NCBI GenBank assembly: GCA_028694995.1
Contig: JAQVJU010000004.1
Coordinates: 1 to 36,067, forward strand
Source: Minisyncoccota bacterium
Lineage (GTDB): Bacteria > Patescibacteriota > Minisyncoccia > UBA6257
DNA: 36,067 bases
Direction: 5' to 3'
Below the pieces are notes generated by a model. The model was not told where the DNA came from and did not search any database. It saw only the letters and a list, made by a program, of their open reading frames with translations. Positions 1-10,010 of the stretch are shown piece after piece (within the stretch, counting starts at the first letter, position 1; every line of letters starts with the position of its first letter). Position numbers and translations under genes: made by a program.

Positions 1-1052
1 TCGGCTTATCAGGTGGCATAGATTCTGCTATTGCTTTAATTTTATTAAAACAACAAGGCTGGCAACCTATTGGTGTTTTTTTAAAATTACCTCTTTGGCA
101 AAACAACACTAATGCTTTTTCAAAAAATATTTATCAATCAGAACAATCTTTTAAAACAGCCATTGATATTTGTAAAAAATTAGATGTTCCTTTTTATACT
201 ATTGATGCTAAAAAAGAATTTGAAAAAGAAGTTGTTGAATACTTTATAAAAGAATGGAAAAACCTAAGAACGCCTAATCCTTGTGTTGTTTGCAATCCTA
301 ATTTTAAATTCAAACAATTAATCAATTGGGCTAAAAAACATAAAATTCAATATATTGCTACTGGCCATTATGCTAAATTAAAATTAAATCCCAAAACTAA
401 ATTATATGAATTATTTAGAGCCAAAGATAGAACCAAAGACCAAACCTATGATCTTTGCCTTTTGCCTCAAAAATGGCTTAAACAAATCATTTTTCCTTTA
501 GGTGATTATTCTAAACAACAAGTTTATCAAATAGCTAAAAAACAAGGATTAAAAACCTTTTCTCAAAAAAAAGAAAGTCAGGATTTCTGTTTTATTGCTG
601 GACAATCCCTTTGTCCTTTTCTTAAAGAAAAAATAGGGGAAAAACAAGGATTAATCACTAATTTGGAAAACAATGTTTTATCCCAACATCAAGGATTGCA
701 TTTTTATACCTTGGGTCAAAGAAAAGGCATTAAGCTTTCTAATGGACCATATTTTGTCTCTGGTTTTGATAAAAAAAGAAATGTTCTTTTAGTAACTAAA
801 AATAAAAAAGACCTCTTAAAAAAAGAAATCTTCATTTATCCTTATCAATTAATTTCTGGACAAAAAATTCAAAAACCTATCAAAGCCCAGGTTCAAATCC
901 GTTATCAACAAAAACCTTGTTCTGCTAAGTTAATTCCTCAAAAAAACAAATTAAAGATAATATTCTCAAAACCCATTCTTGCTCCTTGTCCAGGTCAATT
1001 TGCTGTTTTCTATGAAAAAAACAAATGTCTTGGTGGTGGCAGAATAATTTGA
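1..1052 (+). CDS. mnmA: tRNA-specific 2-thiouridylase MnmA, 5'-truncated by window edge
   Basis: Frame 3 is open from base 3: GLSGGIDSAIALILLKQQGW (PP-loop SGGxDS), NPCVVCNPNFKF (catalytic Cys region), ATGHYAKL, KDQTYDLCLLPQ, ESQDFCFI (second catalytic Cys). Stop TGA at 1050-1052. The ORF-track start at 462 (TTG) is internal. Confidence 0.95.
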   Translation, partial: GLSGGIDSAIALILLKQQGWQPIGVFLKLPLWQNNTNAFSKNIYQSEQSFKTAIDICKKLDVPFYTIDAKKEFEKEVVEYFIKEWKNLRTPNPCVVCNPNFKFKQLINWAKKHKIQYIATGHYAKLKLNPKTKLYELFRAKDRTKDQTYDLCLLPQKWLKQIIFPLGDYSKQQVYQIAKKQGLKTFSQKKESQDFCFIAGQSLCPFLKEKIGEKQGLITNLENNVLSQHQGLHFYTLGQRKGIKLSNGPYFVSGFDKKRNVLLVTKNKKDLLKKEIFIYPYQLISGQKIQKPIKAQVQIRYQQKPCSAKLIPQKNKLKIIFSKPILAPCPGQFAVFYEKNKCLGGGRII

Positions 1053-1056
1053 GCAT

Positions 1057-1158
1057 CTATACGACCAGATCCAAACCTATTTTGAACGAATTTGACTGAA
1101 TGCCGCATCGCAGGCAGACAGGAACTCCGTCAAAAATTACGGCAGGTTCGCCCGTCAT
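1057..1158 (-). other. GC-rich 33-codon mini-ORF (MTGEPAVIFDGVPVCLRCGIQSNSFKIGLDLVV*) in the intergenic region; possible repeat or insertion remnant
   Basis: ATG (1156-1158) to TAG (1057-1059) read directly. The 1102-1157 part is about 59% G+C against an AT-rich background. Contains a CLRC (CxxC) motif. Confidence 0.4.
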
Positions 1159-1189
1159 TTTAAATATTAAAAAATTATTTTTTGCTTGA

Positions 1190-1771
1190 TTACTCTATTT
1201 TCTCTTCAACTTCTCCTTCAATTTCCTCTATTTCTTTAGGGATTACATAAACATATTGCAAAAATTTTTCTGTAAAATCAATCGCTACTTTAGCATCTTT
1301 TTCCTCAATTTTTTCGCCAAGTAAAATATCTGGATGCGCCCCTTTATTACCCCAGTATCTTAATTTATGGGCTAGTTTTTTTAAATTATCATCTATTTTT
1401 AATTCCTCTATTTGGCCAAATAAATTTTCCTTTTTTGCTCCTTTTTCTATACAACTTTGCTGAATGACACGACGGGACATTATTACTGAAGAAGTATAAC
1501 AACCATTGCTGTAATTCTCTAAACTCTCTAAATAATCATTTCTTATATTATCTGGTAATTTATCAGTTTTTATTTTTGGTTTTATTTTTACTAAAGGAAA
1601 AATTTGAGCATCACGTATATCTTGCTCACGAGTAAACCTTGAAACTATAACTCCATTACAATTTGAACAAACCCAAGCTTGCTGATATGAATTATCAGAT
1701 TGGCAGTAACATTGATTTACTAATTTAGAAAATTGACACTTGGCCTTACAATATGGACACTCAAATAACAT
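1190..1771 (-). CDS. DUF4145-like protein with N-terminal zinc-ribbon-like cysteines
   Basis: 193 aa; CPYCKAKC...CSNC at the N-terminus; DYLESLENYSNGCYTSSVIMSRRVIQQSC...LRYWGNKGAHPD is typical of DUF4145. Confidence 0.75.
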   Translation of the reverse strand: MLFECPYCKAKCQFSKLVNQCYCQSDNSYQQAWVCSNCNGVIVSRFTREQDIRDAQIFPLVKIKPKIKTDKLPDNIRNDYLESLENYSNGCYTSSVIMSRRVIQQSCIEKGAKKENLFGQIEELKIDDNLKKLAHKLRYWGNKGAHPDILLGEKIEEKDAKVAIDFTEKFLQYVYVIPKEIEEIEGEVEEKIE

Positions 1772-1780
1772 ACTTAAATT

Positions 1781-2068
1781 TTATTTTTTTCTAACAACTA
1801 CTTTTTTGCCTTGAATCAATCTTATATTCTTTTTTTTCGCATAATCCTTTGCTGGTTCAGTAAATCCCTCCTTGCTCACAACTTCATTTATACCCTTAAG
1901 AGCAAGTTTATTAAGCGTGCCCTTGTCGACTGGTCGCGCCCATCGTTTAACTTCTCCTTTCCTTCCACCTTTTACATAGTCAGGAGAACCGGGCCCACCT
2001 TTTGGATAACCACGCTGGCGGGCTTTTACTTTTTCGTAATTGTAACCTCTCTTTTGTGATTTTCTCAT
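1781..2068 (-). CDS. Minimal Mrr-like / PD-(D/E)XK restriction endonuclease-like protein
   Basis: 95 aa; GGPGSPDYVKGGRKGEVKRW (PD...ExK) followed by GFTEPAKDYAKKKNIRLIQGKKV, resembling the end of Mrr-cat domains. Confidence 0.6.
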   Translation of the reverse strand: MRKSQKRGYNYEKVKARQRGYPKGGPGSPDYVKGGRKGEVKRWARPVDKGTLNKLALKGINEVVSKEGFTEPAKDYAKKKNIRLIQGKKVVVRKK

Positions 2069-2076
2069 AATATTAT

Positions 2077-2874
2077 CTATTTATATTTCTGCCATTTTAC
2101 TTTTGTGGCAGTATTACGGTTATCATTCCCTTCTGGTTTTTTTGCCAGAATTAAATACTTAAATCCTCGCAAAAAGAAATTGAATTTTTGGGCCCGATAA
2201 TGCCAAATTCTAGTATTTGAACTTTGATTTCTCCTTGTTACGCAAATTAAATCAATCGGTTCAAATTTTACATTATCAATTAACATCTGGTAAATTTTAA
2301 ATCCAACGGGCGTAAATTTTCTTTTTACCCACTGATCACCAATCAACCAACCTAATACTTTACCGGGTTTCAAAATTCTGTAAATTTCTTGAGCAACTTT
2401 TTCCATTTCCTCATAAAATTTAGGGTCTTCAGCAGAAATTTTTCCAATATCTGCAGCTTCATCAGAATAACTAACATTATCACCATAAGGGGAATCTATA
2501 AAAACCATATCTACAGAATTATCAGCAAGGCGAATTTTACGCGAATCATTTTTTTTGATTTTTGGATGCTGAGGGTTTATATCATAACCGATTACTTTTC
2601 TCCCCTCTTCTTCACAAACGTCAATTGTTGTCCCACTTCCGCACATTGGATCAACCACCAAATCACCTGGCTTTGTATATCTCTGTATCATATTCCATAC
2701 AATAAAAGCCGGCGTGACACCTTGAAACTTGTTATTTCCTTTTGGTTTTTTACCATAACTTTGCCTTGGAAAATCCCAAAGGGTAGTTGTTTCAAAAGGC
2801 GGCTTTTCTTCCTCCGGTTGATTTGCTGCTATTAGCGGAACTACTTTTTTATTATTTATTGCTTCTTTTGGCAT
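2077..2874 (-). CDS. Site-specific DNA methyltransferase (N6-adenine/N4-cytosine amino-MTase)
   Basis: DLVVDPMCGSGTT (SAM motif I), VIGYDINP, and motif IV-like VFIDSPYGDNVSYSD. Start overlaps the end of the upstream REase gene by 23 bp. Confidence 0.9.
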   Translation of the reverse strand: MPKEAINNKKVVPLIAANQPEEEKPPFETTTLWDFPRQSYGKKPKGNNKFQGVTPAFIVWNMIQRYTKPGDLVVDPMCGSGTTIDVCEEEGRKVIGYDINPQHPKIKKNDSRKIRLADNSVDMVFIDSPYGDNVSYSDEAADIGKISAEDPKFYEEMEKVAQEIYRILKPGKVLGWLIGDQWVKRKFTPVGFKIYQMLIDNVKFEPIDLICVTRRNQSSNTRIWHYRAQKFNFFLRGFKYLILAKKPEGNDNRNTATKVKWQKYK

Positions 2875-3553
2875 AGACTAAATTCTTTAAATCAACTAAA
2901 AATTTATCAAATTTTTTAACTTTATTGCTTTCCTCTATTTCTTCCTCACTCATAACATAACTTCCATCAGTGTCTACTTCAACTATTGCTCTACCTTTCT
3001 TAGCTGGCTTTCTAATGCTTAAAGTTTTATCTTCATCAGGCGTTACAAAAAAAACCTTAATATGCTTTGTAATTTTATCTTGGCTTAACTTAATTTTCCA
3101 ATACCCGGTTTGTGCAATTCTTTCTCGTAACGTCACTTTGCTAGAAAGAACAGCAATAACTTCACGGCTTTTCGGTTCGTAAATAATTATATCAACATCA
3201 GGTAAATGAGAGCCAAATTCTCCATAATCTATTAAAAGATTTCTTTTTACACGATTTAATTCTTCTGATAAGTTATTGCTATTTTTTCTCTCTAAAGTAT
3301 TGCCTTCAATAATTCTCAGACCCAAACTTTCTACTTCGTCTTTGATAATGTAAACAACAAGTTTTTCTAAATTTTTACCCTTAAATGCTCGCCAAGATTG
3401 CTCGTGATCTTTATTAGGTGTTGGAGATTTTTGCCAATCTTTTTTGTGTAATTCTTTTGCCTCTCTTAATAATTCCGAAATATATCTAAAAGCATCTGTT
3501 TTATATTGCTTTTTCTTTTCTTCGTAAAGTTTTATTAAGTCTTCAAATTTCAT
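2852..3553 (-). CDS. Type II restriction endonuclease, BsaWI/CCGG-family-like
   Basis: PDVDIIIY...VLSSKVTLRERIAQTGYWKIKL matches the PD...SxKxTxRx(D/E)R layout of the NgoMIV/Cfr10I/BsaWI group. Flanked by C-protein and MTase genes. Confidence 0.75.
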   Translation of the reverse strand: MKFEDLIKLYEEKKKQYKTDAFRYISELLREAKELHKKDWQKSPTPNKDHEQSWRAFKGKNLEKLVVYIIKDEVESLGLRIIEGNTLERKNSNNLSEELNRVKRNLLIDYGEFGSHLPDVDIIIYEPKSREVIAVLSSKVTLRERIAQTGYWKIKLSQDKITKHIKVFFVTPDEDKTLSIRKPAKKGRAIVEVDTDGSYVMSEEEIEESNKVKKFDKFLVDLKNLVYAKRSNK

Positions 3554-3558
3554 AATTG

Positions 3559-3777
3559 TTATTTGGCTAATTTATCTAAAGAAACATCAAGAGCTCTTGC
3601 TATTTTTAGAACAGTTTCAATCGTAGGGTTTTGAATAGCCCCCGATTCAATCTTAATAATTGTATTATAAGCAACTTCAGCTAGTTTCGAGAGTTTATCT
3701 TGCGAAATATCCTTTTTCTTTCTTATTTTTTTGATGTTTTTTGCTATTTTGGGAATTTCGTTTAACCTTGTAGCCAT
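3559..3777 (-). CDS. XRE-family HTH regulator, probable R-M controller (C) protein
   Basis: 72 aa; IRKKKDISQDKLSKLAEVAYNTIIKIESGAIQNPTIETVLKIARALDVSLDKL; located immediately upstream of the REase gene. Confidence 0.85.
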   Translation of the reverse strand: MATRLNEIPKIAKNIKKIRKKKDISQDKLSKLAEVAYNTIIKIESGAIQNPTIETVLKIARALDVSLDKLAK

Positions 3778-3798
3778 AAAATACTATTATTAATATAA

Positions 3799-3814
3799 GG
3801 TTATGTTACTAACC
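3799..3814. promoter_or_regulatory. Candidate C-protein operator (inverted repeat GGTTATGTTACTAACC)
   Basis: GGTTA-n6-TAACC type inverted repeat lying between the predicted promoter and the HTH gene start. Confidence 0.4.
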
Positions 3815-3837
3815 AACTTATCTATTTATCTATAATA

Positions 3838-3866
3838 ATGATACACAATTAATTTAGAATAGTCAA
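3838..3866 (-). promoter_or_regulatory. Sigma70-type promoter of the R-M cluster
   Basis: Minus strand TTGACT-17 nt-TATCAT upstream of the HTH gene. Confidence 0.65.
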
Positions 3867-3966
3867 TAATAATCAGGAAGTAAAAATTTTAAAAATTTCT
3901 TAAATTCAGCGGCTCGTCCGCAAAAAGGACAAAGAATATCGAGTAAAAAACAAAATTTGATACCAG

Positions 3967-4037
3967 AGCGGGATACGAGAATCGAACTCGCGCCTCAACC
4001 TTGGGAAGGTTGCATACTACCATTATACGAATCCCGC
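3967..4037 (-). tRNA. tRNA-Gly (anticodon CCC)
   Basis: Minus strand GCGGGATTCGTATAATGGTAGTATGCAACCTTCCCAAGGTTGAGGCGCGAGTTCGATTCTCGTATCCCGCT: 7-bp acceptor GCGGGAT/ATCCCGC, anticodon arm CAACC-TTCCCAA-GGTTG, T arm GCGAG-TTCGATT-CTCGT, U73 discriminator, no encoded CCA. Confidence 0.95.
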
Positions 4038-4429
4038 TATTTCTTTATTTTCTCTATTAAATTATGCCAAAATTGAGAGAATTTTGAAATTATATCATTG
4101 CCTAAACTCATAGAAGCTGATAATTCTCTTTCACTAGTTGTCGCTATTTCTTCTGTGTTATTAGTTGAAGGAATAACTAAAACTACTTGCTCTCCTTCTT
4201 TTTTATACCCTAACATTAAACGCGCTTCTCTTTCTAAAATCTCTTCTTGAGTTCCAGTTTCTAATACTTGTCCCAACCTTTCTTCTTCTTCTAACAAACC
4301 CTGTTTTTTCATCTCTAAGTTTTCCACCTCACTGGTTAATAGACGATGTCGTTGCCATTCTTCAGGAATGCGTTTAGCAAGAAAAAAAATGACAAAAACA
4401 CTAATTAAAATTAAGAGGAATTTTTTCAT
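4037..4429 (-). CDS. Septum formation initiator family protein (FtsB/DivIC-like)
   Basis: 130 aa; N-terminal TM segment then coiled coil; ILEREARLMLGYKKEGEQVVLV C-terminal signature. Confidence 0.8.
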   Translation of the reverse strand: MKKFLLILISVFVIFFLAKRIPEEWQRHRLLTSEVENLEMKKQGLLEEEERLGQVLETGTQEEILEREARLMLGYKKEGEQVVLVIPSTNNTEEIATTSERELSASMSLGNDIISKFSQFWHNLIEKIKK

Positions 4430-4440
4430 TGTTTTTTGTA

Positions 4441-6237
4441 TTAATGAGAGGAAGGAAATATTTTGAAAAAAACCTCAGAAGGAATTTGCAAATCAGCTTG
4501 CTCTAATAATCTCTTTTTCCCTTTTTGCTGTTTTTTCCAAAGCTTCATTTTCCTTGTTCTGTCACCCCCATAAAGATTACCGGTAACGTCTTTTTTCAAA
4601 GCAGGTATTGTTTCTCTGGCAATAATTCTCCCCAAGCCCCTGATCTGAATAGCAATCGGATAGTTCTGACGCGGTAAAAGTTTTTTTAATTTCAAAGCCA
4701 AACCCCTAGCCTCTCTTTCCATTTTATCCTTAAATACTATTCTCGACAAGCTTTCAAATGTTTTCCCTGCCAAATCAACTTCTAATTTTTCCAATTCTGT
4801 CTGTTCATATCCAATAACTTCATAACTCATTGAAGCATAACCTGAAGAAACAGATTTTAAATTATCATAAAAATCCTTAATGGTTTCTTCTAAAGGAATC
4901 TCACATTTAATAATCAATCTCTCAGAAAAAGTAAAAGTTTCAATGTTTTTTCCTCGGGAATCATTAATTAACTTCATCACGGCAGATAAATAATGAGGAA
5001 TAATAATAATTTCCATTTTTACCCAAGGTTCTTCAAAACCAATGATTTCACTTGAATCAGGCCATTCACTAGGATTGGTAATCATCTTTTCTTTCTTGTT
5101 TCTTAACAAGATTTTATAAGGCACCGTGGGTTGAGTGATAATTAAATCCAAACCATATTCTTTTTTTAATCTTTCCTGGGTAATTTGCAAATGCAACATG
5201 CCTAAAAAGCCCAAACGATAACCTCGACCCAAAGCCTCAGAACTTTCTGGGGTAAAAAACAAAGCCGAATCATTTAATTTCAATTGGGATAAAGAATAAC
5301 GAAAATACTCAAAATCCTGCTCTCCTTTTCCTAAAGTTAAATCTTTTCTTCCTTTAGCCATATAAAAACCAGCAAAGACCATTGGTTTTGGTTCTTCATA
5401 TCCAGGCAAAGGCTCAGCTTTTGATTTAGCCACTGTATCCCCAACCCTAACTAAATTCAAATCTTTTAATCCAGTTGCTATCCAACCTATTTCTCCTGAT
5501 TTTAATTTTTCTTTTGATTCTAATTGAGGGGCAAAATATCCTAAATCTAATACCTCACCTTTAACCTGACTGGCTACAAAGTAAAGCTTATCATTTTTAG
5601 AAATCTCTCCTTCAACCACTCTTAAATAAGCAATAATGCCCTTATATGGATCATAATGAGAATCAAATATCAAAGCCCGAAAAGGTTTTTCATCTTTAAT
5701 CTTAGGACTTGGAATTTCAGAAATTATCTTTTGAAGCAAAAATTCAACATTTTCCCCAGTTTTAGCTGATAATAAAACAATTTCTTTTTCATCAATTTTT
5801 AATAAATCAGCCAATTCCTTTTTCTTCACATCTAAATCAAAGATATCAATATCAATTTTATTGATAGCGCCAATAATTTTAAGTCCTTGTTGTTGTGCTA
5901 GGGCAAGATTAGAAAGCGTTTGCGCTTGAATGCCTTGAGTGCCATCTACTAAAAGAACTGCTCCTTCTACAGCAGCCAAAGCCCGAGAAACCTCATAAGT
6001 AAAATCTACATGCCCTGGCGTATCAATTAAATTCAGAATACAATCTTGATATTTCATCTGCACTGGCTGCATTTTAATTGTAATCCCATGTTCTTTTTCC
6101 AAATCCATTCTATCTAAATATTGAGGAACTAATTTATGCTCAGAAACAGTTTTTGTTAATTCTAAAAACCTATCAGCTAAAGTAGATTTACCATGGTCAA
6201 TATGAGCAATAATGACAAAATTGCGAATATTATTCAT
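4441..6237 (-). CDS. lepA: Elongation factor 4 (LepA)
   Basis: 598 aa; NNIRNFVIIAHIDHGKSTLADRFLE; C-terminal GGDRTRKMKLWKKQQKGKKRL typical of LepA. Confidence 0.98.
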   Translation of the reverse strand: MNNIRNFVIIAHIDHGKSTLADRFLELTKTVSEHKLVPQYLDRMDLEKEHGITIKMQPVQMKYQDCILNLIDTPGHVDFTYEVSRALAAVEGAVLLVDGTQGIQAQTLSNLALAQQQGLKIIGAINKIDIDIFDLDVKKKELADLLKIDEKEIVLLSAKTGENVEFLLQKIISEIPSPKIKDEKPFRALIFDSHYDPYKGIIAYLRVVEGEISKNDKLYFVASQVKGEVLDLGYFAPQLESKEKLKSGEIGWIATGLKDLNLVRVGDTVAKSKAEPLPGYEEPKPMVFAGFYMAKGRKDLTLGKGEQDFEYFRYSLSQLKLNDSALFFTPESSEALGRGYRLGFLGMLHLQITQERLKKEYGLDLIITQPTVPYKILLRNKKEKMITNPSEWPDSSEIIGFEEPWVKMEIIIIPHYLSAVMKLINDSRGKNIETFTFSERLIIKCEIPLEETIKDFYDNLKSVSSGYASMSYEVIGYEQTELEKLEVDLAGKTFESLSRIVFKDKMEREARGLALKLKKLLPRQNYPIAIQIRGLGRIIARETIPALKKDVTGNLYGGDRTRKMKLWKKQQKGKKRLLEQADLQIPSEVFFKIFPSSH

Positions 6238-7839
6238 TTATCCTTTGTTTCTATTTAACACTTTTTGAACAAGAATATTTCTTACCTCAGTTATCTCTTT
6301 AATCTTTAATTTATAACTAAGAGAGAAAAAACAAATCAAAGAAACAACAAAAGCAATTCCAGCATTAATCACTAAATTAACAACTTTTTCCATAGAAAGA
6401 TATTGTCCTAAGAAACTAAATAACAAAGAAGCAACCAAACCACTAATCAAAGAAACAAACAATATCTTTAATAAAGAAATGTAAAAATCTTTTAATAATT
6501 CTGAATTAAGGCCTGGTTTTAATAAAATTCCTAATATTAGAAAATACAAGAAATAGGTCAAAGTAACTGCCAGAGCTAATCCCTCAACCCCAAAAACCAA
6601 ACCAAACTTATAACATAATAAAAACCCTAGGACATATGAAACAATTGCCGCAATAAAAGGCTTTAAAGTATTTTTTTGAGCAAAAAAGATTCTTAATAAT
6701 AAAGCATTAACTCCTTGAAAAATCATTCCAAAAGATAAAATTGAAAAAACTTTAATTGTCTGACTGGTAGAATACCAATCAAATTTTCCATAACCTAATA
6801 ACAAACGAATAATTGGTTCCCGAAAAACTATAAACCAAATCGCAATCGGAATCAAAAAGAAAAATATCTGCGTCAATGTTTCCAAAGAAGTTTTAGTAAA
6901 TTCTTTTTCTTTTTTCTCAATCTTCAATTTTGACAAAACAGGAAAAGCAGCCACAGCAAAAGACAAGGCAAATACAGTCTGAGGCAAATTTTGAATATCA
7001 TTGGCAAAATTAAAAACCGACAAACTTCCTTCTCTTAACATTGTGGCCACAATAGTCACTCCTAAAAGAAAAACCTGATTGGCAATAATGCTCAAAGAGC
7101 GAGGGATCATTAAAAAAACCATATTCTTAAGACTAGACATTTTTTCTTTCAAAACCAGAAAATCAAACTTAATTTTATACCCAGTAGTTAATAAAGCTGG
7201 AATTTGAATAGCCAAATGCAAACAAGAGCCTAAAACCACTCCATAAGCCAAACCTTTTAATCCCATTCTAGGACTAAAAACAAGAATACCAATAATAATC
7301 CCTGTATTATACAATAAAGGAGCTAAGGCGCAGGATAAAAACAATTTAAATACTTTTAAAACACTAGAAACCACAGAAGAAATACCCATAAATATGGGTT
7401 GAATCATCATAATTCTAGTTAAGATAATAGCCAAATTCAATTGTTCAGCATTAAATCCAATTAAAAGCCGAGAAAGAAAAGGCCGAGCAAATATTGCTAC
7501 TAATATAGCAATAATTCCAATAAAAACACCAATGCACATTACAATCGCATTAGCAAACTCCCAAGCCTCTTCTTTATTTTTAGCCCAATATTCAGTAAAG
7601 AGAGGAATAAAAGCCACTGAAACAGCACCCATAATAAAAATATTATAAATCAAATCTGGCAATCTAAAAGAAGCATAATAAATATCTAAATATCCAGAAG
7701 CGCCAAAATAACTAGCTAAAAAAGCATTTCTTAAAAGACCTAAGAAACTACCTAATAAAGTCAACCCACTGGTTAACATTGCGGCCCCAAAGATTGTTTC
7801 TGATTTATGATTTAATATTTTATGAAAACGGGCAATCAT
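6238..7839 (-). CDS. murJ: Lipid II flippase MurJ / MviN family
   Basis: 533 aa polytopic membrane protein; LLRNAFLASYFGASGYLDIYYASFRLPD, AVSVAFIPLFTEY, GEGxLSVFNFAND-type region. Confidence 0.92.
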   Translation of the reverse strand: MIARFHKILNHKSETIFGAAMLTSGLTLLGSFLGLLRNAFLASYFGASGYLDIYYASFRLPDLIYNIFIMGAVSVAFIPLFTEYWAKNKEEAWEFANAIVMCIGVFIGIIAILVAIFARPFLSRLLIGFNAEQLNLAIILTRIMMIQPIFMGISSVVSSVLKVFKLFLSCALAPLLYNTGIIIGILVFSPRMGLKGLAYGVVLGSCLHLAIQIPALLTTGYKIKFDFLVLKEKMSSLKNMVFLMIPRSLSIIANQVFLLGVTIVATMLREGSLSVFNFANDIQNLPQTVFALSFAVAAFPVLSKLKIEKKEKEFTKTSLETLTQIFFFLIPIAIWFIVFREPIIRLLLGYGKFDWYSTSQTIKVFSILSFGMIFQGVNALLLRIFFAQKNTLKPFIAAIVSYVLGFLLCYKFGLVFGVEGLALAVTLTYFLYFLILGILLKPGLNSELLKDFYISLLKILFVSLISGLVASLLFSFLGQYLSMEKVVNLVINAGIAFVVSLICFFSLSYKLKIKEITEVRNILVQKVLNRNKG

Positions 7840-9652: not shown

Positions 9653-9659
9653 ATAAAAG

Positions 9660-10004
9660 ATTGAACCGGGCAGCTACTGGAATATAATTTCCAGAGGAAA
9701 GTCCGAACACCAACAATTACCTAGTTGTTAAAAGGTAGCAGCTAACAGCTGTCGTTAAGCGTTTAACGCTTAATAGAGGTGCGAACAGAGACGTTGTGTT
9801 TTGAAAAAAATACAACCTCCTTATAGGAGGAGTCCTAAAAGCAATTTTAGGAGTGAAACGGCTAAACCCTTGCTGGGTGCAAGGTCCGGGCCAAGCATTA
9901 TGCTTGGAGTGACCGCTTGACCTTAATGGTGACATTAAGGCTAGATAAATGGCTGCCGCCCAATCCTTAAGGAATGGGTACAGAATTCGGCTTATAAGTT
10001 CAAT
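9660..10004 (+). ncRNA. rnpB: RNase P RNA (class A-like)
   Basis: GAGGAAAGTCCGAACACC, AGAGGTGCGAACAGAGACG, GTGAAACGGCTAAACCC, CTAGATAAATGGCTGCC, ACAGAATTCGGCTTATAAG. P1 pairs ATTGAAC (9660-9666) with GTTCAAT (9998-10004). P4 pairs AG(U)CCGAA (9700-9707) with TTCGGCT (9986-9992). Confidence 0.95.
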
Positions 10005-10010
10005 TAATAG

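Follow-up and report, generated by a model that had tools for sequence, protein, structure and literature searches.

A one-base overlap between the divIC stop codon and tRNA-Gly(CCC) in a Paceibacterota genome

The locus analysed here raises the question of whether a tRNA that lends a base to the stop codon of the preceding gene also influences, through its own maturation, how much of that protein is made. The original prediction proposed that RNase P would cut within the stop codon of a division gene on a shared transcript, thereby linking tRNA processing to expression of that gene and to ribosome rescue. We investigated the locus within a 36,067-nucleotide stretch of DNA (the window) from a groundwater bacterium of the Paceibacterota with a genome of about 504 kb and a completeness estimate of 100%, the named relatives of which are Candidatus Paceibacterota/Patescibacteria metagenome-assembled genomes (MAGs). 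We consider it probable that the overlap is a recent, tolerated outcome of the tight packing of divIC and tRNA-Gly(CCC), and not a conserved switch. It shows the extent of packing in reduced bacterial genomes, in which a tRNA can lend either a single base or its conserved U8-A9-G10 to end an upstream gene.

The junction between divIC and tRNA-Gly(CCC)

On the minus strand, the junction reads ...AAG AAA TAG CGGGATTCG..., and G1 of the tRNA is exactly the G of the divIC TAG, as originally predicted. The two same-strand genes thus share precisely one base and form an overlapping pair of the selB-selC type. The upstream ORF belongs to the DivIC/FtsB family according to its match to Pfam DivIC (PF04977, E 3.2e-7, 30.5 bits against a cut-off of 28.9). 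The downstream gene folds into a cloverleaf with a CCC anticodon, identifying it as tRNA-Gly(CCC), and its acceptor stem GCGGGAT/ATCCCGC pairs at 7/7 positions, in agreement with the perfect pairing claimed earlier. ARAGORN called the tRNA at 4037-3966 and Rfam RF00005 at 4037-3967 (61.1 bits). From the tRNA 5' end, the RNase P cut is predicted to fall between 4038 and 4037. No RNA structure other than the tRNA was found at the junction (fold z -0.30). The murJ, lepA, and divIC genes are closely spaced on one strand and therefore look like an operon with tRNA-Gly at its end (Table 1).

The 3' end of tRNA-Gly borders a BsaWI-type restriction-modification island (window 1054-3966), which separates it from mnmA (about 3-1052, plus strand). 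The island comprises genes for an HTH regulator, the BsaWI endonuclease, and an N4/N6 methylase, a 95-residue ORF with a weak Mrr-catalytic match, and a DUF4145 gene. GAGC is present at both of its junctions, and a search of the window and the genome for a second copy of the tRNA-Gly 3' end, as an attachment-site repeat, found none. The island is absent from a sister genome, in which mnmA directly abuts tRNA-Gly. In the sister species, the convergent mnmA gene has a TGA stop (L002:1422-1424) that shares bases with the 3' end of this tRNA-Gly, leaving the tRNA hemmed in by a stop codon on either side.

Table 1. Coordinates of the features discussed (window positions unless a locus or contig handle is given)
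Feature	Position	Strand	Remarks
murJ	6238..7839	-	upstream member of presumed operon with lepA and divIC
lepA	4441..6237	-	11 nt ahead of divIC; presumed operon member
divIC/FtsB-like septum formation initiator ORF	4037..4429	-	130 aa; stop TAG 4039-4037; Pfam match
Candidate extended -10 promoter	4061..4088	-	TTCAAA-N16-CATAAT, TGG before it; inside divIC 3' end
Shared base	4037..4037	-	third base of divIC TAG stop and tRNA-Gly G1
tRNA-Gly(CCC)	3967..4037	-	G1 at 4037; discriminator U73 at 3967; CCA not encoded
RNase P RNA, class A	9658..10010	+	RF00010, 109.3 bits
cca / tRNA-Pro(CGG) overlap	L045:5838-7337 / L045:7328-7401		own genome C4:49537-51099

Origin and distribution of the overlap

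Among 11 genomes of the family, tRNA-Gly(CCC) lies right behind divIC in nine and is not found there in two. The distances from the stop end to G1 are -1 (own), +3 (closest relative), +5, +5, +5, +14, +74, +11, and -10. Conservation of the overlap, proposed as a check of the original prediction, accordingly failed: stop and tRNA are 3 nt apart in the closest relative, others range from +5 to +74, and one carries a different overlap. In the closest relative, whose protein is 93% identical, the junction is TAAATAG, with TAAATAGCGGG in place of the TAGCGGG of the window, and the alignment reduces the difference to one AAAT unit. The gaps in the rest of the genus are positive as well, which marks the overlap as the derived state. 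By comparison with relatives, loss of an AAAT unit (AAATAAATAG to AAATAG) created it, removing an earlier TAA stop.

As a single-genome indel in a MAG, this difference could reflect an assembly or strain-level error. We regard it as very improbable, however, that the unit was lost through MAG sequencing or assembly and that the junction really reads TAAATAG, like that of the closest relative, instead of AAATAGCGGG. The site of the difference is a short tandem repeat known from a single sequence, but the flanks of the junction read cleanly, the ORF and the tRNA are intact with or without the AAAT unit, and independent genomes carry overlaps of their own at other loci. A 4-nt unit of a two-copy repeat is rarely lost in short-read assemblies.

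We extended the comparison to the order, where tRNA-Gly(CCC) was found near divIC, within the stretch read, at 90 of 126 divIC loci; the two genes are an old neighbour pair within this order of the Paceibacterota. Spacers could be scored at 79 of the 90 loci. The gaps cluster between 0 and 15 nt, with seven loci at exactly 0, and the divIC stop precedes the tRNA by 0-5 nt in 26 of the 79 scored pairs. Similarly, most tRNAs with a nearby upstream gene in the host genome sit 2-15 nt after that gene. Genuine overlaps of any kind number four, comprising the -1 state of the window, seen once in 79 pairs, and three cases at -10 (L011, L097, and L113), in which a genuine DivIC ORF enters the tRNA and terminates at its U8-A9-G10. 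Overlap as a state is not beyond chance and forms the tail of the tight spacer distribution. The -1 overlap, confined to one genome among the 79 scored pairs, was rejected as a conserved functional trait. Two further apparent overlaps, L090 (-21) and L161 (-10), were taken to be chance ORFs, their tails not being DivIC-like, and were left out. The order divIC, tRNA-Gly(CCC), tRNA-Thr(CGT) recurs in many families of the order (loci L022-L169), and at some loci an extra ORF of about 190-200 residues separates divIC from the tRNA.

This second class of overlap, with the stop at U8-A9-G10, also occurs in the host genome itself. The gene for the CCA-adding enzyme (499 residues; PF01743, PF12627) extends ten bases into tRNA-Pro(CGG), where its stop consists of U8-A9-G10 of the tRNA. 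This overlap is common to the host and its sister species (L171) and is thus kept in two species, as the divIC/tRNA-Gly overlap is not in close relatives; elsewhere in the family, the gaps between cca and tRNA-Pro are 0, 0, 1, 2, 4, 6, 32, and 114 nt. Every genuine overlap seen lies in the frame in which U8-A9-G10 gives an early stop, suggesting that the tRNA serves as a fallback stop once the native stop has been lost. One might propose that stops built partly or wholly of tRNA bases (TA|G1 or U8-A9-G10) are a recurrent Paceibacterota arrangement in which 5' maturation of the tRNA leaves the upstream message without a stop. We consider this broader proposal very unlikely. If it were true, tRNA processing at the cca/tRNA-Pro locus would hold back the very enzyme that adds CCA.

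Transcription and the fate of the divIC message

The search for an intrinsic terminator separating divIC from tRNA-Gly found none; if transcription reads through, cleavage at TA|G would therefore leave a non-stop message. In the host genome, the upstream regions of free-standing tRNAs have a mean promoter score of 11.38 against 8.41 for the null, whereas those of tightly packed tRNAs score 8.05 against 7.38, no more than shuffled sequence (difference between the classes, Mann-Whitney p = 2e-4). The missing promoter signal favours co-transcription for the packed class. At the level of the order, the promoter signal does not differ between close and distant tRNA-Gly genes, and with this flat result co-transcription is not proven. 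Taken together, the evidence leans towards at least partial read-through from divIC into tRNA-Gly.

The tRNA may alternatively have its own extended -10 promoter in the 3' end of divIC, in which case the transcripts would mostly be separate and the shared base of little consequence to divIC. We see this as a possible, though not the probable, arrangement. The candidate, TTCAAA-N16-CATAAT with a TG extension, matches 9 of 12 positions, is the sole TG-extended site among 28, and its -10 element ends 23 nt upstream of G1. Its score of 10.3 (p 0.13) falls between the packed and free-standing classes, among the better sites of packed tRNAs. Members of the own family have TGGTATAAT or TGGTATGAT at the same place (mean z 1.9), near-consensus in two of six (p 0.007 each). 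However, the hexamer falls on a W-Y/H-N-L protein motif, a looser form of which is also seen in two relatives without the tRNA. Synonymous-codon shuffles gave no sign of codon choice for an internal promoter (p 0.145 for the full promoter at this locus; mean p 0.48 over the order), and codon-level selection for it was rejected. Even with such a promoter, read-through from the operon would persist, as no terminator intervenes. Of the two observations named beforehand as speaking against the original prediction, separation of the stop and the tRNA was found in relatives, and an internal promoter only as this TG-extended -10 candidate.

Besides the RNase P RNA, the host genome encodes the RNase P protein (RnpA), tmRNA (tag ANLKPAYAYA), and SmpB. 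The suggested look for ssrA and smpB thus succeeded, and rescue of non-stop mRNA by trans-translation is available to the host. In the general model, ribosomes stalled at non-stop ends recruit tmRNA-SmpB (PMC3985003).

Under the preferred reading of a tolerated packing outcome, the divIC ORF, after the AAAT loss, now ends at a TAG that borrows G1 from the tRNA, and tRNA-Gly would probably come, at least in part, from the end of a murJ-lepA-divIC transcript, with a weak promoter within divIC perhaps as an additional source. The RNase P cut at TA|G would leave an mRNA ending in ...AAA UA. Ribosomes at the stop before the cut would terminate normally at UAG, and those arriving after cleavage would, going by established pathways, find no stop and depend on tmRNA-SmpB for rescue, which would lower DivIC output somewhat. 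The overlap may thus yield some non-stop divIC mRNA. If the genes are co-transcribed, each RNase P cut would produce such a message, providing a natural test of the need for rescue in such bacteria.

It is a further step to suppose that RNase P maturation removes the divIC stop by design, and that together with tmRNA tagging it determines how much of the division protein is made. All the components exist in the genome, and overlaps recur at divIC loci of other order members and at cca/tRNA-Pro. Yet the -1 overlap occurs in this genome only, a whole stop lies upstream of the tRNA in the closest relative and most others, and a conserved control device should not disappear between 93%-identical genes. 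The missing conservation argues against a dedicated switch and leaves the divIC overlap alone with little regulatory weight; we therefore consider a regulatory link very improbable. Of the proposed connection between processing and expression, the overlap, RNase P, tmRNA, SmpB, and the lack of a terminator were borne out, whereas conservation of the overlap was not.

Comparison with known mRNA-tRNA overlaps

A partial literature search found no report of such overlaps for Patescibacteria. The closest bacterial precedent is the overlap of selB with selC (tRNA-Sec) in Alphaproteobacteria, Gammaproteobacteria, and Nitrospirae, for which the author proposed that processing of the tRNA would limit production of full-length SelB (PMC8124441). 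As in that system, a bacterial protein gene here shares bases with a downstream same-strand tRNA; in some lineages the selB stop also lies within the tRNA, and the overlap comes and goes among relatives. However, the selB-selC overlap usually covers the entire tRNA-Sec, in contrast to the one base of the window or the ten of cca/tRNA-Pro and three divIC loci. Moreover, selB and selC are functionally linked, whereas divIC is without a known functional tie to tRNA-Gly.

In E. coli, RNase P cuts polycistronic tRNA transcripts apart (Mohanty, Agrawal and Kushner, cited in PMC9433436), and it would likewise free tRNA-Gly from a longer upstream transcript. The E. coli cases, as cited there, concern the splitting of multi-tRNA transcripts and do not describe a shared stop codon.

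The tRNA punctuation of animal mitochondria, where annotated TAG stops overlap the tRNA that follows (PMC4624183), offers another parallel. There, too, a tRNA abuts or overlaps the stop, and its excision sets the mRNA 3' end. In mitochondria, stops left as T or TA are filled in by polyadenylation, but no completion of UA to UAA is claimed for divIC; bacterial RNA tails chiefly mark RNA for decay. The divIC/tRNA-Gly(CCC) junction is a minimal further example of mRNA-tRNA overlap as in selB-selC and mitochondrial punctuation.
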